This document shows positions 5,150 through 21,247 of a DNA stretch of 64,000 nucleotides, one piece after another. The notes under the pieces were generated by a model. The model was not told where the DNA came from. It searched no databases and worked only from the letters and a program-made list of their open reading frames with translations. How positions within the stretch are numbered: the first letter of the stretch is position 1; every line of letters begins with the position of its first letter. This DNA is from Actinotalea alkalitolerans (GTDB taxonomy: Bacteria > Actinomycetota > Actinomycetes > Actinomycetales > Cellulomonadaceae). The stretch lies in NCBI RefSeq assembly GCF_023369855.1, contig NZ_JAMBPP010000009.1, positions 62,001-126,000 of the forward strand, given 5' to 3'. Both the position numbers and the translations under genes were made by a program.

Positions 5150-7095
5150 TGTCGATCCCCCCACCCAACCTCGACGACCGGTCCTTCCAGGACATCGTCG
5201 ACGAGACCAAGCGCATGATCCCGCGGTTCACCCCGGAATGGACCAACCACAACGTCTCGGACCCGGGCGTCGCGCTCATCGAGCTCTTCGCCTGGATGAG
5301 CGAGATGGTGCTGTTCCGGGTCAACCAGGTCCCCGAGAAGCTCTACGTGCACTTCCTCAACCTGGCCGGGATCGAGCTGTTCCCACCGACGGTGGCCCAC
5401 GCCGACGTGACGTTCTGGTTGACCGCACCTGCCACCCAGCCCGTCGGCGTCCCCGTCGGAACCGAGGTCACGACCTCGACCGCAGCGACCGACCCGGTGA
5501 TCTTCTCGACCGTGCGAGAGGCCGTCGCAGCACCACCCCGGATGCGAGCGGCGCACACGACGCGTGCCCGCGAGGAGCAGGTCGTGGACGGCTGGGACGA
5601 CCTGACCTACCTCGGCAGCTCCCTGACCTGCTTCACCTCTGAGCCCGTGCAGGCCGGTGACGCGCTCGCCCTGGGCTTCGCGGACTCCCTCGCGGGACTC
5701 GCGCTGCGGCTGACCGTGGAGGCGACCGCGGAGGGCATCGGCGTCGACCCGGCCGACCCCCCGCTCGCCTGGGAGGTCTGGACCGGTGAGGCGTGGACCG
5801 CCGTGGAGGTGCGGAGCGACAGCACCGGTGGGCTGAACCGCAACGGCGAGATCGTCCTGCTCGTCCCGCAGGCGCACGAGCCGCTCACCCTGGGTGGGAC
5901 GGTGGCCCACTGGCTGCGCGTACGTCTCGTGCACCCCGCACCGGGCCAGCCCACCTACAACGCCTCGCCCCGGATCGCGGCGCTGCGCGCCGACGTCGTG
6001 GGGGTCACGGTGCCGGCCGAGCACGCGACGAGCACCGGTCAGGAGAACCTGGGCCGCTCGACCGGCGTGCCTGCCCAGCAGTTCCGTGTCGGCTCGGTCC
6101 CGGTAGCCGCCCGCCGCGAGGACGAACGGGTCCGCGTCGTGGTCGGCGAGGTGGTCACCGACTGGACCGAGGTCGGCGACTTCTCGCTGTCCGGCCCGAC
6201 CGACCTGCACGTGGTCTGGGAGTCGACCACCGGCACCGTGCGTTTCGGTCCCCGCATCCGCTACCCGGACGGCACGGTCCGCCAGCACGGTGCCGTGCCC
6301 CCCGACGGCGCTGTGGTCCAGGTGACCGGGTACCGCTACGGGGGTGGTGCTCGGGGCAACGTCGGAGCGCGGACCCTCAGCTCGCTGCGGTCGACGGTCC
6401 CGTTCGTCGGGGGCGTGGTGAACCTGCACCCCGCCGGTGGTGGCGTCGATGCCGAGACCGTCACCGAGGCCAAGGTGCGGGGTCCCCTGACGCTGCGCAC
6501 CGGGCAGCGTGCGGTCACGGCCGGCGACTTCGAGAGGCTCACCCGCGAGACCTCGGTCGAGGTCGCCCGGGCCAGGTGCCTCCCGGCGACGCAGACCCCC
6601 AACGGTGCCGTACGTGTGCTCGTCGTCCCCCAGCTGCGCACCGACCCGCGGACGCACCGCATCGACGACTTCGCCCTGTCCGAGCCGCTGCTGCGCTCGA
6701 TCAGCGACGTCCTGGACGCCCGCCGCACGGTCGGCGTGGCCGTCGAGGTCGGGACACCGTACTACCAGGGCGTGAGCGTGGCGGCACTGGTCAAGGCCCT
6801 GCCCGGGCGGCCCGCCGCGCTGGTGCGCCAGCGTGCGCTGGACGTCGTCGACCGCTACGTGAACCCGCTCACGGGTGGTCCCGACGGGACCGGCTGGCCG
6901 TTCGAGCACGAGATCAGCGCGGCAAGCATCGGCCAGCTCATCGAGGCCGTCGAGGGGGTCGAACGGGTCGAGGAGCTGTTGCTCTTCGAGTACGACCTGC
7001 GAACCGGCCGCCGGCTGGGCAGCGGCCGCGACGTGCTGCTGCCCGAGGCCCACACCCTGTTCCTGTCGGCCGAGCACCGGGTCGTGGTCCGGTGA
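5149..7095 (+). CDS. Baseplate J-family wedge protein (gp6/Afp11-like)
   Basis: 648 aa. The N-terminus (DRSFQDIVDETKRMIPRFTP, then NVSDPGVALIELFAWMSEM) is typical of the CIS gp6/Afp11 family, followed by the beta-rich middle and the baseplate-J core (VTEAKVRGPLTLRTGQRAVT, then FERLTRETSVEVARARC). These proteins form the iris ring of the baseplate that opens on triggering. It overlaps gp25 by one base pair of ATG/TGA. After its stop there is a 42-base spacer before the tail protein I gene, with a GAGGGGGG ribosome site at the end of the spacer. No transmembrane segment; a cytoplasmic structural protein. Confidence 0.93.
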   Translation: MSIPPPNLDDRSFQDIVDETKRMIPRFTPEWTNHNVSDPGVALIELFAWMSEMVLFRVNQVPEKLYVHFLNLAGIELFPPTVAHADVTFWLTAPATQPVGVPVGTEVTTSTAATDPVIFSTVREAVAAPPRMRAAHTTRAREEQVVDGWDDLTYLGSSLTCFTSEPVQAGDALALGFADSLAGLALRLTVEATAEGIGVDPADPPLAWEVWTGEAWTAVEVRSDSTGGLNRNGEIVLLVPQAHEPLTLGGTVAHWLRVRLVHPAPGQPTYNASPRIAALRADVVGVTVPAEHATSTGQENLGRSTGVPAQQFRVGSVPVAARREDERVRVVVGEVVTDWTEVGDFSLSGPTDLHVVWESTTGTVRFGPRIRYPDGTVRQHGAVPPDGAVVQVTGYRYGGGARGNVGARTLSSLRSTVPFVGGVVNLHPAGGGVDAETVTEAKVRGPLTLRTGQRAVTAGDFERLTRETSVEVARARCLPATQTPNGAVRVLVVPQLRTDPRTHRIDDFALSEPLLRSISDVLDARRTVGVAVEVGTPYYQGVSVAALVKALPGRPAALVRQRALDVVDRYVNPLTGGPDGTGWPFEHEISAASIGQLIEAVEGVERVEELLLFEYDLRTGRRLGSGRDVLLPEAHTLFLSAEHRVVVR

Positions 7096-7137: not shown

Positions 7138-7683
7138 GTGCGCAGTGACCAGTGGATGCTCTCCCAGCTTCCGGTGGGGATGACCAGCGACGACTTCTTC
7201 ACACGCTTCGTGTCGATCTTCCAGGAGGAGGCCGGCACCCTCCTGGCCCATGCCGACAACCTCGAGCACCTGGTCGACCCGTCGCTCGCGCCGCCGCAGA
7301 TGGTGCGCTGGATCGCGACCTGGATCGGGTTGGCCGGCCTGGACCCCGGTCTCCCGGACGACTCCGCACGCAAGCTGGTCGCGACCGCGTCGAGCACCCT
7401 GGGGTGGCGCGGCACGAAGAGCGGCCTGACCGCGATCCTCGAGGCCTACAGCGGTGGACCCGTGCACGTCCAGGACGGCGGTGGGGTCTGGCGCGAGGGC
7501 GAGGCCCCCGCGGATCCCGCGTGGGTGGTCATGTCCGTCGCGTCGACAGGTGGCCTGACCGAGGAGGACTTCGTGGCCCTGCTGGCCGACCACGTACCCG
7601 CGCAGGTCCGTGCCGAGCTCTGGGTCGGTGACCGGCTCGTGTGGCCCCAGCCGTCGATCCGAGAGGTGGTGCCCGGTGACTGA
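7138..7683 (+). CDS. Phage tail protein I family baseplate protein (Afp12-region)
   Basis: 181 aa from a GTG with GAGGGGGG five bases ahead. It has the features of the short phage-tail domain family related to P2 gpI: SDQWMLSQLP at the N-terminus, FTRFVSIFQEEAGTLLAHAD, VRWIATWIGL and a Thr-Lys-Ser-Gly-Leu segment (WRGTKSGLTAILEAYSGG) shared with gpI-like wedge proteins. In P2 gpI partners with the J protein in the baseplate wedge, and the gene order J then I is kept here. It is far shorter than full Afp12/gp7 proteins, so it may supply only the wedge core. The last codons overlap the start of the zinc-ribbon membrane protein, linking the two. Confidence 0.85.
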   Translation: MRSDQWMLSQLPVGMTSDDFFTRFVSIFQEEAGTLLAHADNLEHLVDPSLAPPQMVRWIATWIGLAGLDPGLPDDSARKLVATASSTLGWRGTKSGLTAILEAYSGGPVHVQDGGGVWREGEAPADPAWVVMSVASTGGLTEEDFVALLADHVPAQVRAELWVGDRLVWPQPSIREVVPGD

Positions 7684-8182
7684 GCCCTGGACCGCGATGC
7701 CCGACGAGCCCCTGCGCGGCGGCACCGAGGACGACGGCCTGCAGGACACCATGACCAGCTGTCCGGAGTGCGGGACCACCTCCGTGGTCCGCCCCTCACG
7801 CCGCGACGCAGAGGACTTCTGCCCGGCCTGCGACTACCCGCTGTTCTGGGCCCGGAGCTACCCGGCCGCCACGGCGCCGGCGGGCGACTCCGACGACGCA
7901 CGACGTCGGGCACCGGGAGCCTCGGGGGCGACCCTGATCGCCACTGTCCCCTGCCCGAGCTGCTTCGAGCTGAACCTCCCCGGAGCCTGGCTGTGCATCC
8001 GATGCGATGGCAGCATGACGCCGCCGCCACCCCCGGTCCCCGCTCCGGTGCTGATGCCCGTGCTCGTCCCGGACCCGGTCACGGTCCGCGAGCCGACGCC
8101 TGCCGAGCGGTTCCCGTGGTGGTGGTTCGTCGCGATGGTGGTCGCCGTCGGGGGCTTCTGGGCCGTCAGCACCTTCCTCTGA
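7676..8182 (+). CDS. Double zinc-ribbon protein with C-terminal membrane anchor
   Basis: 168 aa from the GTG that overlaps the end of the tail I gene. Eight cysteines form two CxxC...CxxC ribbons: C29/C32 with C49/C52, and C93/C96 with C107/C110. A Pro-rich linker follows, then a single hydrophobic segment at ~147-167 that runs to the very C-terminus (WWWFVAMVVAVGG). With no signal peptide and the only membrane segment at the end, it should be a tail-anchored protein with its zinc ribbons in the cytoplasm. It is the last gene of the baseplate operon. No function is recognised; its place suggests a part that brings the baseplate to the inner face of the membrane, or a sensor. The fold call is good, the role is inference. 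Confidence 0.75.
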   Translation: MTEPWTAMPDEPLRGGTEDDGLQDTMTSCPECGTTSVVRPSRRDAEDFCPACDYPLFWARSYPAATAPAGDSDDARRRAPGASGATLIATVPCPSCFELNLPGAWLCIRCDGSMTPPPPPVPAPVLMPVLVPDPVTVREPTPAERFPWWWFVAMVVAVGGFWAVSTFL

Positions 8183-8233: not shown

Positions 8234-11200
8234 TCAGGGAGCCGTCACGGTCACCGGCGGGGACGTCGACGCACGGTAGTAGCTCTCCGCACCGGGCCTG
8301 AAGATGGCGTAGAAGCTCTGGGACACGCCCGTGGCCGTCCAGGCGACCGTCCCCCCGATCCCCGCAGTACCCACCGACACACCGTTCGGCGCAGTCCCGC
8401 GGTAGACGGTGAACGTCCCGGGAACCCCGCCCGGGCTCCGGGTCGGCGTGAAGGTCACGATCTCCCCGGTCGCCACACCCGTGGACGGGCTCGCCACCAG
8501 TGCGGCGACCGTGACCCCGTACACCGTGACGACCGAGGAGACCTCGGAACCCGTGTGGGTGGTGGTCTGCACGTACCTGGCGGTCAGGGTCGAGGTGCCC
8601 AGCGCCAGGCCCGCGGTGACGGCCCCGGTCAGGTCGAGACCAGCCCCACCCGTCGTGTCGACGGTGGACGTGCCCAGCACCGTGGACCCGTGCAGGAAGG
8701 TGACCGACCCGGTCACGACCGGGTCGCCGCCGGGGCCGGTGACGCGGACGGCCAACGTGGCAGGGCTACCCCGGTCGATCGTGGCGGGCGGCGAGACGAG
8801 CGCCGTCGTGGTCGGGACACGGACCGTCACCGAGGTCGCGGTGGCCGTCGTCGACCCCGCGTGAGTTCCCGTCCCGTTGAACCGGGCGGTGAATGCGCTC
8901 ACCCCACCGGTCCACGCCGAGGTGTCCGGGGTCAGGACGGCGGTCCGCGTGCCACCCGATGACGAGACGGTCACGTCCGGGGTCAGCTCCACCCCGTCAC
9001 GCAGGAAGGTGACCGTCCCCCCGGTCAGCCCTGCGGTGCCGCCCTGGGTCGTCACGCTCGCCGTCAGGGTCAGCACCTGACCCGGGGACACCGGGTGCGG
9101 TGCGGCCGCCAGCGTCGTCGTCGTCCCGGTCCTGGCCAGGGTGAACGAGGCCGTGACCTCCGGTCCGGCCGAGGCGATGGCGATGCTGCGCGTCGTCGGG
9201 GAGATCGTCCACCCCGCAACAGCGGGGGTGATGGTGTAGCTCGACGTCCGGTCCAGGTGCACGACCTCTGCCCCTGCACCGATCCCGACGGACCCGTCCA
9301 CGACCACCGTCCCCGTACCTGCCCCCGAGCTCCGGGTGATCACGAAGGGCAGTGAGGCCGGGGCGTCGGTGGCGGTGGACGTCGCCACGACCCGCACCCG
9401 CACCTCGGAGACGACCAGTGCCACCACGGTCGCCCCCTCGGCGACCGGTGCGCTCGTCACGCCGTAGTGGCCGGTCGGGCCCGAGACGGACGCCGTCCAC
9501 GCACCGGGCGGGACCTGGTTGAAGGTGGTGCGGAACTCCCCGCCGCCGGCCCGGACCACCGGCTGGGCGGCCAACGAGAGCCCACCGGTGGCCTCGGGGT
9601 CCAGGGCGACGAGCGCACCGGTGAGGTCGAAGCCCTGCTCCGAGGTCACCGTGACCGTCACCTGGCGCGTGACCGTGTACAGCACGAGGTCGACCGAGAG
9701 CACCTGACCGCCCCGGACGGTGACGGCGCGGGAGGTGCCCGAGTAGCCGGTCGCGTCGACGGCGAGCACGTAGGAGCCGTCAGCCACGCCCACCAGGGTG
9801 AACGCTCCATCGGTGGTGGTCGTGGAGTACCCGAGGTCTGCCTGCGTTCCCGCCTCGAGCAGGTCGACCGTCGCACCGTCCAGAGGTACGGCCGCGGCGG
9901 CCCCGGCCTGGCCGGACACCGTCCCGATGACGGTGTTGGTCCGTGCCGCGATCGGCAGGCTCAGCACGGTCGGCTCCCCGGCAGCGACCGTGATGCTGAC
10001 CGTCAGCGGCGCGAAGCCACCGCCCGAGATCGCCAGCGTGTAGCTGCCCGGCTCGATCCCGGGGAAGAGGTACAGGCCGTCGGTGGTCGGCGACGGGCAC
10101 GTGTCGGTCGTGGTGGCGCAGTCGATGGTCACCGTCCCGTCGACTCCGACCAGGGCCACCTGGAGCCGGTCGACCTCCGTCGACCCCGCGTTCTCGGGGT
10201 CGTAGACCGTCAGTCGGAGGTCGACCGGAGTCGCCCTGAGCAGCAGGTTCACCGCGACCTCGGTGCCTCCCGCGACCGGGACCGACCGGGACGGGGCGCC
10301 GTCGGCAAGCCCGTAGCCCGGGGCCACGACGGTGACGGTCCACGTCCCCTCGACCAGCCCTTGCGTGCTGGCGGTCCCGGTGATCCGGTAGCCCCCGGAG
10401 GTGTCGGTCGTCGCGGTGAAGACCCGCCCGCCCGCCTGCTCGGCGCGCACGAGCACACCCGACAAGGTCCGGGTCGCGCCGGTCGAGGTCTGGACCGACA
10501 CGGTGCCGGTGATCGCCCCCAGCTTGGTCACCGTGACCGGCACGGCGTTCGTCTGGCCCGGGGCCACGGTGACGGTGAAGGTGTGGAACGCGTGACCGGC
10601 CGCCTGCACCAGCACCTGGTAGCTCCCGCTGGCCACCTCCCCGAAGCTCACCTCGTTGGTGCCGGCGATCGCTGCGGTGGTGATGTTCCCCGAGGCCGGC
10701 CGGATCAACGTCACGACGGGGTCCTGCACCGCGGAGCCTGGGGGTGCACCGGCGACCACGGCGACGGTCAGCTCACCGAACCGGGGAAGGTCCAGGGTGA
10801 TCGGGCCGTAGGCGTCGGGGAGCACGGGGACGGTGAAGTCCACGACCGTCGAGTCGAACCCGGCGAGCGAGGCCCTGACCCGGTAGACGCCAGGACGCAC
10901 CATGGTGCCGTCACCGTCGGCCGGCTGGGACAGGTCGCCCCACACGAGCCGGGCCTGGCCGGGCGTCCCGGTCGCCACCGCGCGCACACCCGCACTGCCT
11001 GCGCCGGGCGGAGCGCGCTCGACGTCGAACTCGGTGGCTAGCATCTGCGCGGGTGTCAGGGAGGCCCCACCCAGGAAGGTCATCGTGCCGACGAAGGGCC
11101 GTCCGGTGGGCTCCAGGACGAGAGGTGCGGTGAGGTCGGCGATCGTCACGTTCGACCAGCTCAGCTCACGGTAGGCGGGCGGGACGCCGGGGCTCGCGCC

Positions 11201-14200
11201 GGGGACCCTGACGGTGATGCTCACCTGGTCGGTGACCAGTGGCAGGTACACCTTCCAGGTCTCGTCGACGTCCGCCGGGGTCGGCACGACCTCGAAGACC
11301 CCGTCGGCACCGGTCAGCACGGTCGCCGTCGTGGTGACCGGCACCAGACCGGAGTACCCGGTGACACCGCTCAGCTGCACGCTCGCCCCCGGGACGGGGG
11401 TCAGGGCGCTCGGGCTGAGCTGGGTCGTGACCACGCCCTGGAACGAGGCGCGCGGTCGGGTCAGCACAGCCTGCATGGCGATCTCCTGGTTGGTGCCCAG
11501 GGTCACCACAGCCGTGGAGGCGGTCAGCGAGATCGTCGCGGTCTCACCCTCGGGAACCGTCTCCCAGGCGATGTCGAACCGGTAGGAACCGGGAGGCAGG
11601 TGGGTCACCAGGACGCGCCCGTCCGCGCCGGTCCTCCAGGGGTCGGGGCGCGGGGTGAGGGGCCCGTCGGACAGCCGGACCGGGGTCACCACCGCACCCG
11701 GTGCGGGCAGCAGCGCGGTCGAGCCGCTGTCGGTGAGCACGGTCAGCGCCAGCCGGGCGAGGCGGTCCAGCGTCGCGTCGTACCGTCGCACGTCGCCCGG
11801 GGTCAGCACGATCGCGACCGCTGGGACGGTGAGGTACTCGTCGTCGCCCGGGACCACCATGACGTCGAACTGCCCGCTGCCCAGACGCTCGAGCGCGTAC
11901 GAGCCGTCCGGTCGGGTGCTTGCGCACTGCGCGCCGCCGGTGATGGTGCACGACACCTCGCCGTCAGGCTCCTGGGCTGTCACGCAGTCGCCCAGCGGAC
12001 CGCTCTCGCCGGTGGGCCGCGCCACCACGCAGGTCCCCGCCGGGACGGCACCGACCCGGGTCAGCACGGTTCCGACGACCGAGGGCGAGGGGAACAGCGC
12101 GACCTGGGCCGCCACGACCGTCTCACCCATCGCCACCTGCACCCTGACCCGACCCGGCTCGTAGCCGGGGGCAGACAGGGTCAGGGTGTAGAGGCCGGGC
12201 AGGAGCCCCTCGGCACCGGGAGCCGGGACGGTGTACTCGAGGTCCGGGTCCGAGGTCACCTCGATCGTCCGGATGGACCCGTCCGCGGCCGGAGCGGTCA
12301 GCGTCACCGTGATCTCGCACCTCTCCGGCGTGCCGTCGGGCTCGAGCTGGAGGTTCGAGCAGCTGATCACGCCGTTGGTGCGGGCATCCGAGACGCGCCC
12401 ACGGATGAAGGAGGTGGACAGCAGACCGTCCCCGGGGATCACCGTCATCATCAGGTCCGAGCTCACGGCTCGCCCGGCGGTGACCGTGACCGGTGCGAAG
12501 GCGTCCAGGTGACCGAAGAGCTCGGCCGAGAGCACGTAGTCCCCCGGCACGATGCCGTTGAACCGGAAGGTGCCGCGGTCGTCCGAGGTGCTCATCGTCT
12601 TGTAGGTGTTCTCGCCGTCGCTGAGCGTCAGGCCCGCACCGCCCTTGCCAAGACCAGCACCGTCGACCAGGGTGCCTTGCACCACCCCGGTGGACAGGCC
12701 GAGCCTGACGTCCAACGTGGCCGCGTCCGCACCGGTCCCCAGGGTGACCTGGCTCGTGTGGGAGGCGAACCCGTCGCCGCTGACGGTGACGGTGTAGGTC
12801 GACGGCACCGGCAGATCGGCCAGGATGAACGCACCGGTTCGGCCCGAGGTGACTGTCGAGGCGCTGCGGGTGACCACCCCGTCGGTCGCGGTGACCGTCA
12901 CCCCACCCAGCCCACCGACGCCTCCCAACGCGTCGGGCCCGGTCACCGTCCCGGCCAGTGCCGCGACCCCCCGGTCCAGCGTGAGGTCGACCTCACGGCT
13001 CGCACCGGCGGCGAGGTCGACGAGTCGGGACTGCGCGCCGAACCCTTCACCGGCTGCCGTCACCAGGAAGGTGCTCGGTGTGGACAGACCCTCGACGGAC
13101 CATCGCCCGACGTCGCCCTCCGTCGCGGTGCTCGTGGTGACGACGTTGGTGCCGTCGGTGAGAGTCACCGCCACCCCTCCGACCGCACCCTGCGGCCCGA
13201 CGACGCGGCCCGACAGGCTGCCCGACCCGGCGACCATCTCGACCTTGATCAGTGATGCCGCGGCCTCGGCGCCGGTCATCACGAACCGCTGCGTCTGGAA
13301 GCCCTGCTTGGACAACGTGATGAGGTAGTTCGACAAGGGAGACATCCCGGCGAAGGCCCACGTGCCGTCCTCCAGGGACGCGGTGCTCCGGGCCGCGTCG
13401 GCGACCTCGGTACGGACCAGCGCCAACGACGAGGCAGGCACCTTGCCGAGAGGTGCCCCGTCGGAGGCAGCGGGCACGGCGAGCGCAGCGGTGAGCACCT
13501 GCGCGCTGCCATCTCCCGCACCGCCGCTCTGCGCCTGCCCGAGCTGCGCCGCGGCCGGAGTCACCTGGCCCGGACCTGCGTCACCGCCCACGATCTGGCT
13601 CGCCGGCACCACCTGGACCCGGAAGCCCGCGGGGTCGGCGGCGCTGATGATCCCGCCGATCCGCACGTGCTCGCTCCGGCCCGCCGGGGCGTCCTGGTCC
13701 TGCGCGTCGCCGTCCCTGCTGCCCGGCTCGGAGCCCTCGGCCCCCACGCCGGCACCCGACCCGCCCGCGAGCGTGCTCTCGGTACCCACCCGCTGAGCGA
13801 TCCAGGGCGCACCGATCACCACCCCGGTCAACCACAACGCCGCCACCACGAGCATCGACAGCGCACGGATCGCACCCGAGCCCAGCAACGGTCGTGCGGT
13901 CAGCACGGCCTGGGAGCGGGCGGGCGCCTGGTCACCGGTGGCCGCGAGGACGAACGTCCGACGGTTGCGGTGCCCGACCACCTGCGGGTGCAGCACGGTC
14001 AGGCGTGCGGGCAGCCGGACCGTGCTGCGCGCCGGCACCCGCACCTGCTCGTCGGTCAGCTCGACCCGCATCCCCTTGACCGGGCGCACGGCGAGCCGCA
14101 GCCGGACGTCCTGCTCACCGCTGTTGCTCAGCACGACCGAGACCCGACGACCGAAGACCGCCGACGACTCCGCGGGCTCCACGCCCATCATCACGGTGCT

Positions 14201-14560
14201 CGGGGCATCGACGCGGAGCTCACCCTCGACCATGGTCGCCACGGCCCGTGCCGCACCGCGACCGCTCACCTGTGCCTGGACGGCGAGGGCGAAAGGATAG
14301 GTGCCGGGCACGGCACCGGGCCCGATCCGGACCAGGAGGTCGACCGAGATGGTCGCGTCGGCCGGGACGTCGGCCACGTGCCGGGGCAGCGGGAGCCACT
14401 CGCCGTCCAGACCCAGGGTGGTCACCGTGATGTCGCGCGGACCGTCGGCCAGGTTGCGCAGGTGGACACGGACGACCGCCTCCTGCCCGGAGGCTCCGTG
14501 CGCGTCCGGCTCGACCAGCACGCTGGGCGCGAGGTCACCGGTGGGTCGAAGGCTGCTCAT
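8234..14560 (-). CDS. Giant membrane-anchored multi-domain CpD/Ig-like protein (2108 aa)
   Basis: Residues 1-~225 form two beta-sandwich (NEW3/Ig-like) domains without cysteine or signal peptide; a single membrane segment follows at ~232-254 (ALSMLVVAALWLTGVVIG). After it comes an acidic, Gly-rich linker, then roughly a dozen or more CarboxypepD_reg-like domains (typical unit: SGRVVGPQGAVGGVAVTL ... FLVTAAGEGF), and finally three Ig-like domains of the Big_3_5 type at ~1795-2108. Basic residues precede the membrane segment and acidic ones follow, so N-in/C-out is favoured. Eight cysteines, all after the membrane segment, occur in close groups and could form disulphides outside. It is the last and largest of three paralogues in one operon with DUF4255 and PAAR-like genes. 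I infer a surface stalk that also binds the CIS inside the cell; no enzyme motif was seen. Confidence 0.85.
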   Translation of the reverse strand: MSSLRPTGDLAPSVLVEPDAHGASGQEAVVRVHLRNLADGPRDITVTTLGLDGEWLPLPRHVADVPADATISVDLLVRIGPGAVPGTYPFALAVQAQVSGRGAARAVATMVEGELRVDAPSTVMMGVEPAESSAVFGRRVSVVLSNSGEQDVRLRLAVRPVKGMRVELTDEQVRVPARSTVRLPARLTVLHPQVVGHRNRRTFVLAATGDQAPARSQAVLTARPLLGSGAIRALSMLVVAALWLTGVVIGAPWIAQRVGTESTLAGGSGAGVGAEGSEPGSRDGDAQDQDAPAGRSEHVRIGGIISAADPAGFRVQVVPASQIVGGDAGPGQVTPAAAQLGQAQSGGAGDGSAQVLTAALAVPAASDGAPLGKVPASSLALVRTEVADAARSTASLEDGTWAFAGMSPLSNYLITLSKQGFQTQRFVMTGAEAAASLIKVEMVAGSGSLSGRVVGPQGAVGGVAVTLTDGTNVVTTSTATEGDVGRWSVEGLSTPSTFLVTAAGEGFGAQSRLVDLAAGASREVDLTLDRGVAALAGTVTGPDALGGVGGLGGVTVTATDGVVTRSASTVTSGRTGAFILADLPVPSTYTVTVSGDGFASHTSQVTLGTGADAATLDVRLGLSTGVVQGTLVDGAGLGKGGAGLTLSDGENTYKTMSTSDDRGTFRFNGIVPGDYVLSAELFGHLDAFAPVTVTAGRAVSSDLMMTVIPGDGLLSTSFIRGRVSDARTNGVISCSNLQLEPDGTPERCEITVTLTAPAADGSIRTIEVTSDPDLEYTVPAPGAEGLLPGLYTLTLSAPGYEPGRVRVQVAMGETVVAAQVALFPSPSVVGTVLTRVGAVPAGTCVVARPTGESGPLGDCVTAQEPDGEVSCTITGGAQCASTRPDGSYALERLGSGQFDVMVVPGDDEYLTVPAVAIVLTPGDVRRYDATLDRLARLALTVLTDSGSTALLPAPGAVVTPVRLSDGPLTPRPDPWRTGADGRVLVTHLPPGSYRFDIAWETVPEGETATISLTASTAVVTLGTNQEIAMQAVLTRPRASFQGVVTTQLSPSALTPVPGASVQLSGVTGYSGLVPVTTTATVLTGADGVFEVVPTPADVDETWKVYLPLVTDQVSITVRVPGASPGVPPAYRELSWSNVTIADLTAPLVLEPTGRPFVGTMTFLGGASLTPAQMLATEFDVERAPPGAGSAGVRAVATGTPGQARLVWGDLSQPADGDGTMVRPGVYRVRASLAGFDSTVVDFTVPVLPDAYGPITLDLPRFGELTVAVVAGAPPGSAVQDPVVTLIRPASGNITTAAIAGTNEVSFGEVASGSYQVLVQAAGHAFHTFTVTVAPGQTNAVPVTVTKLGAITGTVSVQTSTGATRTLSGVLVRAEQAGGRVFTATTDTSGGYRITGTASTQGLVEGTWTVTVVAPGYGLADGAPSRSVPVAGGTEVAVNLLLRATPVDLRLTVYDPENAGSTEVDRLQVALVGVDGTVTIDCATTTDTCPSPTTDGLYLFPGIEPGSYTLAISGGGFAPLTVSITVAAGEPTVLSLPIAARTNTVIGTVSGQAGAAAAVPLDGATVDLLEAGTQADLGYSTTTTDGAFTLVGVADGSYVLAVDATGYSGTSRAVTVRGGQVLSVDLVLYTVTRQVTVTVTSEQGFDLTGALVALDPEATGGLSLAAQPVVRAGGGEFRTTFNQVPPGAWTASVSGPTGHYGVTSAPVAEGATVVALVVSEVRVRVVATSTATDAPASLPFVITRSSGAGTGTVVVDGSVGIGAGAEVVHLDRTSSYTITPAVAGWTISPTTRSIAIASAGPEVTASFTLARTGTTTTLAAAPHPVSPGQVLTLTASVTTQGGTAGLTGGTVTFLRDGVELTPDVTVSSSGGTRTAVLTPDTSAWTGGVSAFTARFNGTGTHAGSTTATATSVTVRVPTTTALVSPPATIDRGSPATLAVRVTGPGGDPVVTGSVTFLHGSTVLGTSTVDTTGGAGLDLTGAVTAGLALGTSTLTARYVQTTTHTGSEVSSVVTVYGVTVAALVASPSTGVATGEIVTFTPTRSPGGVPGTFTVYRGTAPNGVSVGTAGIGGTVAWTATGVSQSFYAIFRPGAESYYRASTSPPVTVTAP

Positions 14561-14576
14561 GGTCTGCTCACGTCGC

Positions 14577-17183
14577 TCAGTGGCCGGGGAGGTCGAAGTC
14601 GTTGACGACCTGGTCGCTCGCCTGCACCGTGAGGGGCCGCGAGGTGGCTACCGGTGCGCCGCTCGCGGAGTACCTGACCTCCAGGATGTAGGAGGCGGGT
14701 GCGTCGACGTCAGCCAGCACGTACCGACCCTCGCCGTCGGTGCGGACGCTCGCGACCGGTGGTGCCGCCGTGCCGTACTGATCCGCCCGGTAGAGGTCGA
14801 CGATCGCCCCCACCGTGGGGGCCTGCAGCTGGCGGACCCGCCCACTGATGCTCGCCGGCGAGACGAGCACCGGGTCGACCCGCTGCTCCTGACCCGCCAC
14901 GAGGGTCACGATCGACGACGTCGGACGGGTCCCCGGACGGCTGAACGTCAACGTGTAGGTCCCCGGTGGCAGGCCCTCCAGGACGAACGAACCCGCCGAG
15001 GACGCCGGGGTCGAGGCCGAGGTCACTACGAACTGCGCCTGCCCCGAGCTCGCCACGACCTGGACGTTGCTCGCAGGGCCGACGATCACACCGCCCGCAT
15101 CGCTCTGCCGCACCGTCCCGAACAGCCGGGCCGTCGACAGGCGCATGCGCACGTCGACCGCCGACGCGCTGGGCGCCCCCGTGGTCACCCCGCCGAAGCC
15201 GTCGACGCTGATCGACAGGACCTGCGACTCGAGGTTCTCGCGGGAGAACGTCACCGTGTACGTGCTGGGGATGCGCAGCCCGGAGACCGCCCATGAGCCC
15301 ACCGGCCCCTGGCTCTGCGTCACGGTCTGCCGCGTGGTCGCGCCGTCGCTCACGGTGACGGTCACGCCACCACCGTCGCCCGGGGCCGTCACCGTCCCCG
15401 AGAGGGTGCCGGCGGCGGCACCGAGGGTCGCCGAGACCCCGGTGAGCTGCTGCCCCGCCGCGAGGTTCAGGTTGAGGGTCGCCGGCGCGAAGCCGTCGGC
15501 ACCGACCACCACGGTGAACGTGCCCGGCGTGGGCAGACCGCGCAGGGTGAACGACCCGACGTCGTCCACGGTCAGCGACTCGGTGCTCACCTGCTTGTCC
15601 CCGAAGGTGGCCACCACCGAGGCGCCGCCGACGGGCCCCGCGGTGCCCGTGACCGTGCCCGAGATCGAGCCGTCGCCGTCGAGGAGCTGGATCTCGACAC
15701 CGGACCTGCTCTCCCCCGCGGCGACGTCGATCCGCTGCACCTGCGTGCTGTACCCGACCTTGGCCGTGACCAGGTCGTACACCCCCGGCGACGGGACCTG
15801 CGTGAGGTCGAAGGTGCCGTCCCCACCGACCGGGACGCTGCGCACCACGGCCCCTGACGTCGCGGTGTCGGTGGCCTCCCCTGGCTCGGCACCCACCTGT
15901 CCCAGCAGCGGCGCGGTGTCCAGGGGCATCTCGAGCCGGACGGTCGCCCCTGCGACGTCGTCCCCCACGACGGTCCCCGAGACGCTCGCGGGCACCCCCC
16001 CGACCAGCACCGTCAGGTCGCCCAGCCCCTGACCCGCGGAGACCTCGACGGCCTCGGCGTCGGCGTCGGTGGCGGCGGCCGGGTACCAGACCTCGTCGAA
16101 GCCCGCGGCGCGGAACCGCAGCTTGTACGTCCCCGCGGGCAGCGAACCGAGGCCGAAGGAACCGTCCTCGTCGGTGGCGACCGTGGCGACCGGGGCGGCG
16201 GTGTCCCCCTCGTCGAACGTCTCCACGGTGACCCCCTCGACGCCCTCCCCGGTCGAGAGCAGGAGCACGCGCCCACCCAGGGAGGAGGTCCCGGTGAGCG
16301 AGCCGCCGTCGCGGGCCTGGGCGACCTGCAGGGCCAGGTCCCGGTCCGCGGCCGACCTGCTGACCACGCTGTGCAACGCCGTGGTGATGACGACGGCGAA
16401 GATCGAGACCGCCAGCAGAAGGCCGAGCATCGCCAGCAGTCCGCGGCTGAAGACGGGCTTCTGGATGAAGACACCCATCGCGTCCGGACGGGTGCCCTCC
16501 GGCACCGCGTCGAGACCCGGGTCAGCCGTGGTCGGGCGCTGCGGCGGCGCAGGGGCACCGCCGGCCATGACGTCCACCCGGCGCCGGGTGGGTGCCTTCT
16601 GCTCGTGGACCCGCAGCTCGAAGGCACGCGGCTCGGGTGAGCCGAAGAGCCGACGTCGGGCCGTCACCCGGAGCTCTCCGACGGTGTGCTCACCGGGGCT
16701 GAGCAGGAACCGGGGCGGGTCGACGGTGAAGGTGATCTTGCGCTCGGGGTCGCTGCCGACCAGGGTGGCCCCGACCATCGTGTTGCCGCTGTTCTCGATC
16801 ACCACGCCGAAGACCCCGCGGCGGCCCCCGGTGACGACCGAGGGGTCCAGCCGCACCTCGACGCGGCGCGATCCCGCGACGTCGACCACGACCTCCTCGA
16901 CGGCCGTCTGCTCCGGGGCGGTGAGCTCGCGCACCTGCACGGCCATCCGACGCTCACCCGCGGGCAGCCCGACGGGCAGGTCCATCCGGACGGTCACCAC
17001 GGCCGACTCCCCCGGGAAGAGGGTCGGTTCGGCATCGTCGACCCGCACCCATGCCGGGTCGGCTCCCAGCAGGCGCACCGCATAGCCGCTGATCACCTCA
17101 CCGGTGTTGGTGATGGTGACGACGACCACCGAGGGCTCACCGACGCTCGCTGCCAGGCGACGCGGCTCGAGATCGATCTTCAC
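14577..17183 (-). CDS. Membrane-anchored CpD-repeat protein, paralogue 2 (868 aa)
   Basis: I chose the GTG at 17183, one base after the upstream stop, giving VKIDLEPRRLAASVGEP; an upstream in-frame start would overlap the previous gene by 44 bases. Residues 1-~205 are two beta-sandwich domains (conserved VVVTITNTGEVISGYAVRLLG, then VVIENSGNTMVG). A basic, Pro-rich linker leads to one membrane segment at ~246-270 (LLAMLGLLLAVSIFAVVITT), and six CpD-like domains follow (starts such as SISGTVTGTAGPVGGASVV). No signal peptide; charge favours N-in. The layout matches its two neighbours domain for domain, so the trio arose by duplication. It sits one base from the upstream paralogue and 16 bases from the giant one. 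Likely role: tether or display protein of the CIS locus (inference). Confidence 0.82.
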   Translation of the reverse strand: MKIDLEPRRLAASVGEPSVVVVTITNTGEVISGYAVRLLGADPAWVRVDDAEPTLFPGESAVVTVRMDLPVGLPAGERRMAVQVRELTAPEQTAVEEVVVDVAGSRRVEVRLDPSVVTGGRRGVFGVVIENSGNTMVGATLVGSDPERKITFTVDPPRFLLSPGEHTVGELRVTARRRLFGSPEPRAFELRVHEQKAPTRRRVDVMAGGAPAPPQRPTTADPGLDAVPEGTRPDAMGVFIQKPVFSRGLLAMLGLLLAVSIFAVVITTALHSVVSRSAADRDLALQVAQARDGGSLTGTSSLGGRVLLLSTGEGVEGVTVETFDEGDTAAPVATVATDEDGSFGLGSLPAGTYKLRFRAAGFDEVWYPAAATDADAEAVEVSAGQGLGDLTVLVGGVPASVSGTVVGDDVAGATVRLEMPLDTAPLLGQVGAEPGEATDTATSGAVVRSVPVGGDGTFDLTQVPSPGVYDLVTAKVGYSTQVQRIDVAAGESRSGVEIQLLDGDGSISGTVTGTAGPVGGASVVATFGDKQVSTESLTVDDVGSFTLRGLPTPGTFTVVVGADGFAPATLNLNLAAGQQLTGVSATLGAAAGTLSGTVTAPGDGGGVTVTVSDGATTRQTVTQSQGPVGSWAVSGLRIPSTYTVTFSRENLESQVLSISVDGFGGVTTGAPSASAVDVRMRLSTARLFGTVRQSDAGGVIVGPASNVQVVASSGQAQFVVTSASTPASSAGSFVLEGLPPGTYTLTFSRPGTRPTSSIVTLVAGQEQRVDPVLVSPASISGRVRQLQAPTVGAIVDLYRADQYGTAAPPVASVRTDGEGRYVLADVDAPASYILEVRYSASGAPVATSRPLTVQASDQVVNDFDLPGH

Positions 17184-17184
17184 C

Positions 17185-19407
17185 TCAGCGCACCGCCGGA
17201 AGCCGCAGGTCCTGGCTCGCCGACCCACCGGCCTGCACGGCGACCACGGCGGTCTCCACGACCCGGCCGGACCGCGAGAGCGTCACCGCGTAGGTGCCCG
17301 GCGGGAGCTGGGCGAAGACGTAGTCACCCGCCGACCTGCCGGCCACCGCTGTCGAGATGGTCGTCCAGACCTGCCTGCCGTCGGTGGCCTGCACCTCGAC
17401 ACCTGAGGCACCAGCGCCCGCGGCATCTCGCACGACCCCGCGCACCGTGCCCCACGAGGGGCGCATCGTCACGGCCACCGGCGCCGTCGTGCCGCCGGTC
17501 AGGTCCACCGCCACGCTCTGCGGCGCGTAGCCGGCGAGCGTCGCGGTGAGCGAGTAGAGACCGGGCTCGAGTCCTGCCAGGGTGAAGGCCCCGACGGTGC
17601 CCGTGGTCAGGCTCGTGGCCTGCACGGTGCTGGGCCCGCCGCCGACGGTGACGCTCGCGCCACCCAGCCCCGTCCCGTCGGTGGCCAGCACCCTGCCCGT
17701 CACGGTCCCTGCGCCACCCCCGAGCGCCACCACCAGGTCGCTGCGCACGCCCCCGGCGGACAGGTCCACCACGACCGTGGCAGGCGTGAACCCCTCCTTG
17801 GTGAACGTCACGACATAGGTGCCCGGGGTGGGAAGGAGAGGGATCACGAAGGCTCCGACCATCCCCACCGTCGGGGTGCCCACGACGACGTCCGTCCCGT
17901 CGACCGTGGTGGAGACCTCGACGCCACCCAGCGGCAGCCGGCCGTCGGTCACGGTGCCGCTGATCTGCCCCGTCCCCGAACCGAGATCCACCGTGGTCGC
18001 GAACCGCTCCTGGCCACCGTCGACGTGCTCGGTGGTGGTGGTGGGCAGGTAGCCCTCGGCGGTGAAGGTCAGCTCGTAGGTGCCCGGTGCGGGAAGGCCC
18101 GCGAGCACGTAGGTGCCGTCCGGTGCCGCCTCGACGGTCTGCGCCGATGACTCGTCCTCGCGGTCCCACATCGCGCGCGCCACGACCTGTGCCACCACCG
18201 GACTGGTGACGTCGCCGACGTCCACCGTGCCCCGGATGGTCGCGGGGGCACCCGAGACGGTCACGTCGACCCCGTCGGTCACCGTCTGGCCCACAGCGAA
18301 GACCGGTGCGGCGTCGGCAGGACCGGTCGCAGCGGGGTACCAGACGGTCTCGTAGCCCTCGCCACGGAAGCTCACCAGGTAGCTGCCCGGAAAGATGCCC
18401 GCGACCGCGAAGGTGCCGTCCTCCTGGGTGGCCGCCGAGCCGACCACTGCCCTGCTGCCGTCCCCGGCGGTCCGCCACGCCTCCACCGTGATCCGGCCCA
18501 CGCCCTCCCCGTCGCTGAGCGCCAGGACCGTGCCGGCCAGGGTCCCCCCCACCCCTGCAGCCAGCACCCCGTCCCGTGAGACGCTCCCGGCGGGCATCGC
18601 TCCGGGAACGCCCGCTGCGCCGTCGGCCGGGTCCGAGGTCGCGGCGAAGAACGACGGCGGGGCGGACTTGGTGTACGCCTCGGAGCCGAGGACCTGCCGG
18701 ATCCCCAGCAGGAAGATCGCCGCCCACACACCGACGATCGCGAGCAGCACCAGGGCGGTGAGCAGACCACGGCTCAGCAGCGACCGCTGCCGGAGTACCA
18801 GCGAGACCACCTCGTGCTGGTCGAGCGCGGTCGCCTCGACGCGCAGAGGCCGGTCCCGGTCACCGCCGACGAGCTGGCGGGGACCCTTGACCTGCACGGC
18901 GCAGCGCGCTGTCGCCCCAGGCTCGACGCTCACGGTGGACGGGGTGATCGCGCACTGCAGGGTGCGGTCGCTGTCGTTGGCCCGCAGAGCCACGTCCAGC
19001 GCGACGTTGCCCTGGTTGCGGACCTGCACCTCGAAGGTGGCCCGCCTGCGGGCGCGGATCACCGTGGGCGAGGCGGCCAGCGCGAGGTCGGGCCGACTGC
19101 CCACGACCACCGAGACGTCGTGGTGGACGACGTCGCCCCCCGGCACCTGACCGGTGACCTGGACCGTCACCGGGTGGGTGCCGGCCGGGAAGGTGCTCGG
19201 CAGGTCGAGCTGGACCACCATGTGCCCGGTCGCGTCCGGGAACAACGGCAGGACAGCCGGACGCGAGGTCGCCAGGTCGACCGGCAGACCCAGCACGTGC
19301 GCGGTGACGCCGTCGATCACCGTCCCGGTGTTCACGACCTCGAGCGGGATCTCACCAGCCCCTCCCGGGGCGACGTCCAGGACGTCGACCGTGCTGAGCA
19401 CTCTCAT
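17185..19407 (-). CDS. Membrane-anchored CpD-repeat protein, paralogue 1 (740 aa)
   Basis: Residues 1-~205 are two beta-sandwich domains (IPLEVVNTGTVIDGVTAHVLG and FEVQVRNQGNVALDVALRAN). The second contains C152 and C169, the only cysteines in any N-terminal region of the trio. RQRSLLSRG is followed by a membrane segment at ~212-236 (LLTALVLLAIVGVWAAIFLL), then five CpD-like domains (for example ISGTVTDGRLPLGGVEVSTT) to the C-terminus. No signal peptide. It begins six bases after the DUF4255 stop, so the cap-like protein and the membrane trio are co-transcribed. CpD-like domains are usually extracellular adhesion or stalk modules; here they carry no peptidase or cohesin/dockerin signature. 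Role in the CIS is inferred from linkage. Confidence 0.82.
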   Translation of the reverse strand: MRVLSTVDVLDVAPGGAGEIPLEVVNTGTVIDGVTAHVLGLPVDLATSRPAVLPLFPDATGHMVVQLDLPSTFPAGTHPVTVQVTGQVPGGDVVHHDVSVVVGSRPDLALAASPTVIRARRRATFEVQVRNQGNVALDVALRANDSDRTLQCAITPSTVSVEPGATARCAVQVKGPRQLVGGDRDRPLRVEATALDQHEVVSLVLRQRSLLSRGLLTALVLLAIVGVWAAIFLLGIRQVLGSEAYTKSAPPSFFAATSDPADGAAGVPGAMPAGSVSRDGVLAAGVGGTLAGTVLALSDGEGVGRITVEAWRTAGDGSRAVVGSAATQEDGTFAVAGIFPGSYLVSFRGEGYETVWYPAATGPADAAPVFAVGQTVTDGVDVTVSGAPATIRGTVDVGDVTSPVVAQVVARAMWDREDESSAQTVEAAPDGTYVLAGLPAPGTYELTFTAEGYLPTTTTEHVDGGQERFATTVDLGSGTGQISGTVTDGRLPLGGVEVSTTVDGTDVVVGTPTVGMVGAFVIPLLPTPGTYVVTFTKEGFTPATVVVDLSAGGVRSDLVVALGGGAGTVTGRVLATDGTGLGGASVTVGGGPSTVQATSLTTGTVGAFTLAGLEPGLYSLTATLAGYAPQSVAVDLTGGTTAPVAVTMRPSWGTVRGVVRDAAGAGASGVEVQATDGRQVWTTISTAVAGRSAGDYVFAQLPPGTYAVTLSRSGRVVETAVVAVQAGGSASQDLRLPAVR

Positions 19408-19412
19408 GGTCG

Positions 19413-20075
19413 CTACGCCCCTCCGTCAGCGACGGTCGAGCGCAGCACGCCGTCGGCGTCGCGCCGGGACCGCAGCCCGGAGGTGTCCCCCGTCCCGGGG
19501 CGGGAGACCGCCGCGGTGGGTGGGACGGGTGTGGCCATGCCCTCGATCGAGCTGACACCCCGGGGCGCGGACTCCCAGCCGTAGGCGTCGCTCGCGACCG
19601 TGGCCAGCAGGGTGAACGACGCCTTGAGGTTGCCTCCCAGACCGCCCCACAGGTCGCGTGGCCGGTTGACCTCGTCCACCGCGAGCGTGAGCTGGACGTT
19701 CGAGGACAGCGGGGTGCTCAGGTGCTCGGGCGGTAGCACCTGCTGGGCGATGAGGCGCGTCAGCACATCACCCAGCAGCAGGTGCTCGTCGCGGGTGCTG
19801 CCCGCCCAGGCACTGACCAGGTAGGACAGCTGGACCATCGGCAACGGCGCCCGACGCTCGAGGCCGCCCTCGGCCCCCGGTCGTGAGGAGCCGGGCCGCG
19901 GAGGCAGGGGGCTGCGGGAGACCAGGTAGAGGAAGCAGTTGACCGTGACCCGGTTGACCTGGGCGGCCCAGGTGCCCGACGGCGCCTCGAAGGAGATGTC
20001 GCCCACCTCGTGCGACAGCGGCAGGGCGGCACGCAGATAGCTCTCGAGCCCGTCCTCGACGGCGGGGATCAGCAC
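19413..20075 (-). CDS. DUF4255/Pvc16-N family CIS protein (Afp16-like terminator)
   Basis: 220 aa from a GTG with GAAGGGA nine bases upstream. The N-terminus (LIPAVEDGLESYLRAALPL), the VNCFLYLV strand, the LSYLVSAWAGSTRDEHLLLG core and LTRLIAQQVLPPEHL are the recognised DUF4255 pattern. Afp16/Pvc16 members cap the tube and sheath at the membrane-distal end and set particle length. The C-terminal ~40 residues are Ser/Arg/Gly-rich and probably disordered. In many loci this gene is with the structural block; here it heads the membrane-protein operon on the opposite strand. That linkage is the best sequence argument that the three paralogues belong to the injection system. Confidence 0.88.
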   Translation of the reverse strand: MLIPAVEDGLESYLRAALPLSHEVGDISFEAPSGTWAAQVNRVTVNCFLYLVSRSPLPPRPGSSRPGAEGGLERRAPLPMVQLSYLVSAWAGSTRDEHLLLGDVLTRLIAQQVLPPEHLSTPLSSNVQLTLAVDEVNRPRDLWGGLGGNLKASFTLLATVASDAYGWESAPRGVSSIEGMATPVPPTAAVSRPGTGDTSGLRSRRDADGVLRSTVADGGA

Positions 20076-20273: not shown

Positions 20274-20663
20274 TCAGCCCTCGGTGGTCCGGACCGACCC
20301 GGGGTTGACGACCTGCACGACACCGCCGTAGGCGCAGGTGGTGGTGGCCCCGGCCGTCAGTGCGGGCTTCCCGCCGATCATGGTCGTGACCGCACCGCCG
20401 ACCCACGGGGTCGTGACGGGGATGCAGGGCATCGGGGTCAGCACCCCCAGGGCGGCCGCCGTCGCTGCGACGACCATCGGGTTGGAGGTGCTGCTGCACA
20501 TCCCGAACGGCGGGATGTTCATGATCGGTGCGCCGTCCGCGATGCTCGCGGCGGGCTTCCCCTCGATCATCACCCGGGCGAGCGGGAGGACGGTCAGCGC
20601 TGCCGGGGCGAGGCCGAAGCTGCACTGGATCAGTGCTGTCGCGGTCACTGCGGGCTTGCCCAT
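20274..20663 (-). CDS. DUF4280-type PAAR-like spike tip protein
   Basis: 129 aa; ATG preceded by a strong AAGGAGGGA. The pattern is that of the DUF4280 PAAR-like family: GKPAVTATALIQCSFG at the start, AASIADGAPIMNIPPFG, MCSSTSNPMVV, PCIPVT and CAYGGVVQVVNPG, with four spaced cysteines (near residues 14, 56, 81 and 111). PAAR-like proteins form the sharp tip on VgrG-like spikes and, in some CIS and T6SS, attach effectors. There is no extension beyond the tip domain, so no fused toxin. It is separated from the spike gene by about 16 kb and lies on the other strand. Cytoplasmic before firing. Confidence 0.87.
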   Translation of the reverse strand: MGKPAVTATALIQCSFGLAPAALTVLPLARVMIEGKPAASIADGAPIMNIPPFGMCSSTSNPMVVAATAAALGVLTPMPCIPVTTPWVGGAVTTMIGGKPALTAGATTTCAYGGVVQVVNPGSVRTTEG

Positions 20664-20701: not shown

Positions 20702-21247
20702 TCAGAGAGAGGTGCCTCGCGCCGAGGTCGACGTCTGCGCCCCGGTCGTGGTGATGAAACAGGTCACGTCGTGGTCACCGCCCTGCTCCCAGCCGCGGGC
20801 CGAGGGCAGGAGGTAGGTGAAGAACAGGTCCGAGTCCCGGTAGTCCACCCCGGTGTACTCCCGGAACTTCTCGATGCACGCACCGTCGGCGAACGCCACC
20901 AGGACCGCGTCGCCGGGATAGCTGTCGGGCCGTGAGCCGTCGGGCTGGGTGTAGGGCACCAGCGCGAAGACCTCCTGCTCGTGCGGTTCCGAGCAGGCGA
21001 CCCGTCGGAGGTCAGCGACCTCGCTGGTGATCTCCTCGGGGGCGAGCACGCAGTCCCCCACCTCGACGTCCAGCACCGACACGGTCTCGACGGTCGCGTC
21101 GCCGAAGAGCGAGCAACCGGTGAGCAGGCCTGCCGCCCCGATCGCCGCCGCGGTCAGACGCAGGACGGCGATCGGGGCGCTCGACGTCGCCGTCCCGCGC
21201 AGGGCGTGGCTGCGCGGCGGATGGTCGATCCTTGACTCGCTGTGCAC
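20702..21247 (-). CDS. Septum-formation-family (Septum_form) lipoprotein
   Basis: 181 aa. A long N-terminus leads to a hydrophobic stretch and lipobox (AAAIGAAGLLTGC, Cys ~45), so the mature protein should be a membrane-anchored lipoprotein outside the cell. The domain after it (SVLDVEVGDCVLAPEE, then VACSEPHEQEVFALV) matches the actinobacterial Septum_form family: GDC near the start, CxxPHxxEV, and paired cysteines later. The GTG at 21247 follows a TAGCGT box by six bases, which fits a leaderless start and explains the absence of a ribosome site. Despite the family name no division role is shown. It is 38 bases ahead of the PAAR-like gene and may be co-transcribed with the CIS block, or may be the edge of the neighbouring core region. 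Confidence 0.75.
   Translation of the reverse strand: MHSESRIDHPPRSHALRGTATSSAPIAVLRLTAAAIGAAGLLTGCSLFGDATVETVSVLDVEVGDCVLAPEEITSEVADLRRVACSEPHEQEVFALVPYTQPDGSRPDSYPGDAVLVAFADGACIEKFREYTGVDYRDSDLFFTYLLPSARGWEQGGDHDVTCFITTTGAQTSTSARGTSL

Follow-up and report, generated by a model that had tools for sequence, protein, structure and literature searches.

INTRODUCTION

Contractile injection systems (CIS) of Streptomyces offer the closest described counterparts to the proteins studied here, namely three membrane-anchored proteins, A, B, and C (the trio), encoded in a CIS locus of Actinotalea alkalitolerans within a 64,000-nucleotide stretch of contig NZ_JAMBPP010000009.1 (assembly GCF_023369855.1, positions 62,001 to 126,000; hereafter the window). 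In the CIS locus of Streptomyces coelicolor, Sco4256-4258 each have one transmembrane (TM) helix and highly similar N-termini, two of them carry RICIN C-termini, and they were called effectors (PMC10066040). The first domain of Sco4256 resembles pilus chaperones, and its homologs are rarely found outside CIS regions (PMC10020575). CisA (SCO4242) was shown to be oriented N-in/C-out and to be needed for CIS firing in Streptomyces; its partner is unproven, and Streptomyces CIS show no fibers (PMC12237407). Thylakoid-anchored CIS (tCIS), which have a crown, use a dedicated protein to stay attached to a membrane; eBAP4 fibers contain Ig-type and CpD modules, and a 2026 fiber catalog set aside the loci lacking fiber candidates (PMC12923769). 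A CpD-stalk trio in CIS loci, or its pairing with a shortened CisA-like protein, was not found in the literature searched, most subscription papers lying outside it.

RESULTS

Three paralogous proteins with one layout

The original prediction, made from the letters of the window, described three paralogs of 740, 868, and 2,108 aa, each with paired N-terminal β-sandwiches (the N-domain), one membrane segment, and a stalk of CpD-like domains, closely packed behind a DUF4255 gene and a PAAR-like gene. Open reading frames (ORFs), Pfam, BLAST and profile searches, and AlphaFold2 agreed with the layout, and coordinates and Pfam with the packing (Table 1): gaps were 16 bases between A and B, 1 between B and C, and 5 between C and the DUF4255 gene. 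The frame of B could also be read as 883 aa from an upstream GTG, according to the ORF listing. Separate stretches matching CarboxypepD_reg numbered five in C (8e-44), six in B (9e-49), and nine in A (4e-56). The predicted five and six domains of C and B were thus recovered; in A, for which about a dozen or more had been proposed, about 18-19 sandwiches were counted by eye from models and Pfam matches, well above a dozen. For C, AlphaFold2 with 24 rows (mean predicted local distance difference test score [pLDDT] 81) placed sandwiches at residues 2-102 and 108-207 ahead of the helix and linker, and the β-stranded stalk held five sandwiches by eye count. Residues 921-2108 of A gave a nearly all-β chain, confident until about residue 2020 (mean pLDDT 78). 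Foldseek against PDB and BFVD listed multi-Ig chains of a generic kind, from the cilia central apparatus, complement, S-layer, and phage "Baseplate J like" proteins, with TM-scores mostly of 0.1-0.25; these were disregarded. A PDB sequence search gave only weak Ig-type matches (best 6e-5).

By BLAST, B and C were 32% identical across 778 aa (E 2e-73). When four sequences were compared, the N-domain of B matched that of C (3e-14) and a 271-aa protein from a second CIS locus on contig C30 (5e-10), and the N-domain of A appeared distant (best 0.3, with B). A profile built from C and B N-domains alone nonetheless recovered all 19 A N-domains, the window's A at 4e-12, and hhalign of the C/B alignment against the A alignment gave 99.9%. 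On these two grounds A can be regarded as paralogous to B and C, and the predicted paralogy of all three holds by sequence comparison. A shortened A copy in genome G346 was a weak match to the C and B profile (6e-5). In the Actinotalea genome itself, the four N-domain profile matches were identical to the four sequences that had built the profile. A phage origin of B was also considered and found no support in a single scan, which gave 133 pattern matches and zero relatives by tblastn.

The trio marks one CIS clade

We searched 121 genomes of the family and 394 of the class with the N-domain profile. Genome counts were read from result tables by eye, and 23 and 7 first-look candidates, respectively, were scored per genome, so that absences are not proof. 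In the family, 40 genomes had any match and 26 a strong one, of which 18 carried the trio (19 sets) and 8 only a single-type protein (see below); two trio genomes also had a single-type protein. All 26 lay within the 29 genomes that have the DUF4255 family Pvc16_N, and likewise within the 32 that match a sheath; three Pvc16_N genomes lacked a strong match, and no strong match was seen in the 92 genomes without Pvc16_N (Fisher 2e-23). At class level, 69 of 394 genomes matched at 1e-6. Matches below 1e-30 occurred in 46, all among the 60 with Pvc16_N (the other 14 of these had none at that level), and in none of the 334 without it. The predicted link between trio and CIS was therefore borne out, since all strong-match genomes, 26 of 26 and 46 of 46, have Pvc16_N; homologs lying mostly away from CIS genes are ruled out by this co-occurrence and by the scan-locus gene content given below. 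The weak matches, partial and without Pvc16_N in 14 family genomes (best 5e-7 to 7e-4), and between 1e-6 and 1e-30 in 23 class genomes (7 with Pvc16_N), were taken as generic Ig-type domains. Incidentally, three frames of about 700-790 aa (G502:C4:51227-52609, G401:C71:102673-103989, and G479:C23:180677-182032) showed several partial profile matches, mainly to the second half of the N-domain; those of G502 and G401 lie about 2.5 kb from a Pvc16_N match.

Gene order recurred as well. In 18 of the 19 family sets, the Pvc16_N and C matches share a strand, and the former ends 48-204 bases ahead of the latter; in the remaining set (G062), a contig break falls at this place and a DUF4255 fragment remains. 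DUF4255 runs in the opposite direction in several other lineages (Nocardioides, some Frankiales). A BaseplateJ protein at least 62% identical to the window's was found in 11 of 394 class genomes, exactly the 11 with the trio (8 assigned by gene order, including the window, and 3 by the positions of three N-domain matches), the next best being 51% identical. In a BaseplateJ tree of 21 rows, all 17 trio rows fell on one side of a 100/100 branch. Collectively, these data establish that the trio marks one CIS clade.

A scan with two peptide patterns of B gave 73 loci, a biased lower bound, partly overlapping the family and class genomes and including relatives that are not independent. They came from Cellulomonas, Sanguibacter, Georgenia, Actinotalea, Ruania, Rarobacter, Jiangella, Phytoactinopolyspora, Nocardioides, and Nakamurella, and also from Frankiales, Pseudonocardiales, Acidimicrobiia, and other metagenome-assembled genomes (MAGs). 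Three N-domain ORFs were present in 64 loci. Among the 60 stretches that reach 12 kb or more, all but one had them, 59 in total; the odd one out (L126) ends in B. Gene calling by a codon-usage script failed on lower-GC loci and left 13 loci without CIS genes; a six-frame repeat left 8, so that 65 of 73 had a CIS gene. The other eight were stretches of 3-12 kb, seven of them filled by trio pieces, the eighth (L188) holding half an A fragment and then other, unassigned genes. One contig labeled as a Proteobacteria MAG (L117, JAKBFW010000050.1) bore a trio in which B shares 67% identity with B of the window; it is probably mis-binned.

The stalks have nearly fixed lengths

Within preset length windows, and with broken or unusual genes excluded (A is split in L040 and L051), C measured 729-800 aa (n = 25, coefficient of variation [CV] 2.0%), B 836-898 aa (n = 24, CV 1.6%), and A 1,880-2,148 aa (n = 19, CV 2.9%). 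Outliers in the wider set were A proteins of 3,065 aa (L171) and of 2,774 and 2,681 aa (Nakamurella), and B proteins of up to 961 aa. In C and B, the stalk was about as conserved as the N-domain. In A, identity was 0.36-0.67 in the membrane-near stalk (residues 400-950) versus 0.34-0.41 in the N-domain, and at most 0.21 past residue 1950, indicating that the base is fixed and that mainly the far tip varies. Because order and lengths recur across the clade, the layout is not a matter of chance.

Charges and cysteines support stalks outside the cell

The original prediction had placed the N-domains in the cytoplasm, with outward stalks and no signal peptide. In what follows, rows lacking a helix core of mean Kyte-Doolittle (KD) hydropathy 1.6 were dropped from charge and cysteine counts. 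Mean net charge on the N side of the helix was +2.8 for C (25 homologs), +2.3 for B (25), and +2.1 for A (18), and on the C side +0.5, +0.4, and -0.3. The number of cysteines after the helix was even in 52 of 52 distinct A homologs (2-24 cysteines; neighboring pairs in the 19 listed), in all 8 B homologs and 5 of the 6 C homologs having any, and in 22 of 22 single-type proteins. Extra pairs occur at differing places in relatives, which fits disulfides formed outside the cell. Homologs with a cysteine-free N-domain numbered 46 of 52 for A, 52 of 65 for B, and 37 of 67 for C. The parity in A is the strongest sequence evidence for an outward stalk of A; the C and B stalks are mostly cysteine-poor and say little. 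No signal-peptide-like hydrophobic start was seen in the 25 C and 25 B homologs: for 19-residue stretches among the first 45 residues, mean KD peaked at 1.34 and 1.44; the maximum among 18 A homologs was 1.71. Thus, charges and paired cysteines argue, at the level of sequence, for the predicted orientation and against N-domains outside the cell: a cytoplasmic N-domain, a single helix, and an outside stalk are likely and well supported.

The N-domain is shared with Streptomyces-like CIS proteins

The original prediction knew of no such trio, yet a related trio of CIS-locus proteins with one TM helix, Sco4256-4258, is published (PMC10066040, PMC10020575). The N-domain profile matched ~450-aa proteins, with E values near 1e-53 to 1e-62, in three genomes, G232, G345, and G380, called Streptomyces-like from gene order and published loci. 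Their N-domain and helix are those of the trio, and a flexible linker leads from these to a RICIN or ChW domain. The genes lie between those for the sheath and the AAA protein, as a tandem pair rather than three in each of these fully read genomes. They fit Sco4256-4258 by position and architecture rather than by direct comparison with S. coelicolor sequences. The N-domain is therefore not new, being by its sequence the same module. Both groups are CIS-locus proteins with a homologous Ig/PapD-like N-domain, one TM helix, and a varying C-terminal part; they differ in that the trio has fixed-length CpD/Big_3_5 stalks and a place beside Cis16, and Pfam found none of the C-terminal RICIN seen in two of the three Sco proteins. 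RICIN occurred in three of eight N-domain proteins scanned with Pfam. Among 13 single-type proteins, C-terminal matches above cut-off were RICIN (3), ChW (2), and PG_binding_1 (1), with no enzyme. The L104 member ends in a peptidoglycan-binding domain, and members in the window's relatives have a C-terminal coiled-coil-like stretch and a small domain without Pfam match. The CpD-stalk trio as a fixed feature of a CIS clade was absent from the literature searched; the N-domain/TM module and the Sco4256-4258 trio were already known.

A neighboring gene is likely a shortened CisA counterpart

The 161-aa gene facing A (Table 1) matched Pfam DZR below cut-off (1.3e-4). Its family alignment (15 rows) showed a pair of zinc ribbons and a helix at the very end, only 0-3 residues following the helix core in the 15 sequences. 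The second ribbon of the 161-aa protein aligned with a CisA-like ribbon (hhalign probability 80%). CisA resembles the trio in having a single pass, a cytoplasmic N-terminus, and an outside C-terminus (for the trio, by charges and cysteine parity only), and is encoded at the baseplate end of its CIS locus. It differs in its Cys-rich zinc-binding region before the TM helix and in its ectodomain, neither of which the trio has, the N-domain cysteines numbering two in C and none in B or A. The 161-aa protein shares zinc ribbons and TM helix with CisA but lacks the ectodomain; it is likely a shortened CisA counterpart, the ribbon match being suggestive only. The zinc-ribbon gene was present in all 31 scan loci holding Tail_P2_I (six-frame search).

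In Streptomyces-like loci, a separate gene after Tail_P2_I encodes a protein with a zinc ribbon and a helix ahead of a C-terminal domain, as published for CisA (PMC10020575, PMC12237407). A CisA-type profile built from three proteins (18 first-look candidates scored per genome) matched 7 of 121 family genomes, all with single-type proteins only, and none of the 18 with the trio; no match was seen in the Actinotalea genome, with 18 of 31 candidates scored. We rejected the idea that the single-type proteins of 430-463 aa are CisA themselves, CisA being a separate gene in Streptomyces-like loci and in seven of the eight single-type-only family genomes. As for the Streptomyces membrane protein invoked by the original prediction, CIS there do act with one, CisA (PMC12237407), which is of a different family from the trio and has its likely counterpart in the 161-aa gene.

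The CIS operon and its surroundings

The genome comprises 4.37 Mb in 35 contigs, the window being G000:C35:62001-126000. A CIS operon convergent with the trio begins ahead of the window, in the order sheath, tube, second tube, 1,154-aa ORF, CIS_tube-LysM, VgrG, gp25, BaseplateJ, Tail_P2_I, and the 161-aa gene (Table 1). The CIS could be placed in no dbeCIS subtype. The 1,154-aa frame, rich in Pro, Ala, and Ser, occupies the place expected for a tape measure, between the tube and CIS_tube genes. A Septum_form (PF13845) lipoprotein-like gene (20702-21247) adjoins the PAAR-like gene; the two lie within 1.5 kb of each other in 30 of the 73 scan loci, and the former may be part of the trio system.

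A second, different CIS locus lies at G000:C30:11238-30603 (L007), where a Tail_P2_I protein is fused to a peptidoglycan-binding domain. Directly after Tail_P2_I comes the related 271-aa protein, with a paired N-domain, a membrane end, a weak TIG-like match, and no stalk. Far from both loci, G000:C11:342593-347766 (L191) holds a Pvc15-like AAA gene and a 1,049-aa eCIS_core-like gene. An eCIS_core (DUF4157) and AAA pair was found on the trio stretch in 15 of 73 scan loci by gene calling and in 6 by six-frame search.

Table 1. Features of the trio locus (positions in the window unless a contig is given)
Feature	Position	Strand	Description and basis
Sheath, tubes, remaining CIS operon	C35:57504-60784		Upstream of the window
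1,154-aa Pro/Ala-rich ORF, 3' part	1-2242	plus	Whole frame G000:C35:60781-64242
CIS_tube + LysM	2242-2898	plus	Pfam
VgrG-like spike	2895-4706	plus	Pfam
gp25-like baseplate wedge	4706-5149	plus	Pfam
BaseplateJ (Cis11-like)	5149-7095	plus	Marker of the trio-bearing CIS clade
Tail_P2_I	7156-7683	plus	Pfam
161-aa protein	7697-8182	plus	Two zinc ribbons, Pro-rich linker, C-terminal TM tail; after Tail_P2_I, convergent with A
Protein A, 2,108 aa	8234-14560	minus	ORF list, Pfam, BLAST, AlphaFold2, hhalign
A, domains			Paired N-terminal β-sandwich (by homology); stalk of CpD, then Big_3_5 Ig-like; tip variable beyond about residue 1900
A, TM core	13808-13864	minus	Residues 233-251
A, stalk cysteines			Residues 734, 748, 844, 859, 871, 879, 1481, 1488
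Protein B, 868 aa	14577-17183	minus	GTG start at 17183; ORF list, Pfam, BLAST, 23-row alignment
B, domains			Paired N-terminal β-sandwich (by homology to C); six CpD stretches
B, TM core	16386-16442	minus	Residues 248-266
Protein C, 740 aa	17185-19407	minus	ORF list, Pfam, BLAST, AlphaFold2, 24-row alignment
C, paired N-terminal β-sandwich	18772-19407	minus	Codons 1-212
C, TM helix	18691-18771	minus	Residues 213-239; AlphaFold2
C, linker and stalk			Disordered linker 240-285, then five CpD-like domains; AlphaFold2 and Pfam
Cis16/Pvc16_N (DUF4255)	19413-20075	minus	Pfam 1.5e-23; 5 bases upstream of C
PAAR-like DUF4280	20274-20663	minus	Pfam 5.7e-28

DISCUSSION

On balance, we think it fairly probable that the trio is the membrane part of one actinobacterial CIS clade and forms an inside-out docking or sensing complex. 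In each protein a single helix would serve as the anchor, the paired Ig-like N-domain lying on the cytoplasmic side and the stalk beyond the membrane, an arrangement that the sequences support well. The C and B stalks, with five and six domains and a length of roughly 20-25 nm if 4 nm is assumed for each domain, would stay within the cell wall zone, and A, roughly three times longer and with a variable tip, may reach past the wall. The cytoplasmic N-domains, together with the tail-anchored double-zinc-ribbon protein, could then dock or license a cytoplasmic particle at the membrane; docking of the CIS particle by the N-domains is plausible. The stalks might sense or grip a target in the wall or beyond it, the tip of A contacting something outside. 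The three stalks and the short CisA would thereby do what CisA and Sco4256-4258-like proteins do in Streptomyces.

A more specific version is that C, B, A, and the zinc-ribbon protein build a hetero-oligomeric trans-envelope docking complex, in which C and B would line the wall zone, the N-domains receive the baseplate, and A, extending past the wall, serves as a contact sensor for outward firing, much as in a type VI secretion system (T6SS) made of unrelated parts. This we hold only tentatively, as a rather doubtful extension. If it were true, Sco4256-4258 would be wall-binding docking members rather than injected effectors. The role would be that of TssJLM, which holds the contractile machine at the envelope for outward firing in the T6SS; the trio's host envelope is monoderm, and Pfam matched no TssJ, TssL, or TssM in the trio or the neighbors scanned. 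The tCIS crown is likewise comparable, with the difference that it is a baseplate extension, whereas the trio consists of separate membrane proteins with paired Ig N-domains, beside a Tail_P2_I baseplate.

Several observations weigh against a docking or sensing complex or against parts of it. Lys/Arg counts alone are weakly asymmetric (higher before the helix, equal, or lower in 9, 15, and 1 B and in 8, 7, and 3 A homologs), and at least one cysteine occurs in the N-domain of 30 of 67 C, 13 of 65 B, and 6 of 52 A homologs. The zinc-ribbon match to CisA spans 25 columns only, and in further trio loci with Tail_P2_I, gene calling found the ribbon gene in 14 of 17. A single-type protein occurs with no CisA match in the Actinotalea genome and in G020, both trio-bearing, and also in G090, so that the exchange with CisA is not strict. 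Particles of such CIS may be free-floating, with firing directed inward. Triple deletion of Sco4256-4258 left most tubes empty and abolished stress death, and these proteins harm Escherichia coli on expression (PMC10066040). Moreover, Sco4256 was detected in purified particles, and a third of its homologs have a C-terminal domain likened to toxins or hemolytic lectins (PMC10020575).

These published lumen, toxicity, and particle data also bear on the best-surviving alternative, that the trio are effectors, as proposed for Sco4256-4258: cargo taken up by the CIS that, once ejected, inserts in a membrane. The trio does share its N-domain/TM module with the Streptomyces-like genes at the Sco4256-4258 position. 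However, three near-constant lengths and a constant order are unlike variable cargo, the C-terminal Pfam matches of single-type proteins include no enzyme and the trio carries stalks, and paired cysteines point to ordinary export. Separate eCIS_core and AAA genes exist in some trio loci, and as the pair on contig C11 in the Actinotalea genome, and the cargo of Streptomyces lividans consists of other, tape-measure-like and eCIS-core genes, Sle1/Sle2 (PMC13277306). We therefore judge the effector explanation unlikely.

Less probable still, and quite improbable in our view, is that the trio are unusual tail fibers on the baseplate, the stalk being a receptor-binding arm and the TM helix a hydrophobic joint. 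The trio lies beyond the baseplate genes and convergent with them, no other fiber candidate was recognized in the locus, and Ig-like and CpD modules are present in eBAP4 fibers. Nevertheless, a strongly hydrophobic helix with conserved charged flanks argues against a soluble baseplate trimer, as do the cysteine pairs in the stalk of A against fibers. DUF6519, the eBAP5 marker, was absent from the Pfam matches of the trio-region proteins scanned, and eBAP4 loci are said to be without Tail_P2_I (PMC12923769), which is present here.

Finally, CpD/Big_3_5 repeats are common in surface proteins, the tip of A is variable, and loci such as L117, L125, and L135 have no baseplate gene after A within the stretch examined, but that the trio are surface adhesins or wall-binding proteins merely traveling with CIS genes is highly improbable given the CIS genes in 65 of 73 scan loci, the trio pieces filling seven of the other eight, and the one-to-one match with the BaseplateJ clade.

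Under the docking or sensing complex that we favor, the trio bears on the question of how cytoplasmic Gram-positive CIS reach and cross their own membrane and wall. It puts in question the published effector reading of the related Sco4256-4258. A clade with three invariant stalk proteins, whose topology can be read from charges and cysteine parity, offers a concrete candidate for the missing surface apparatus of these systems.

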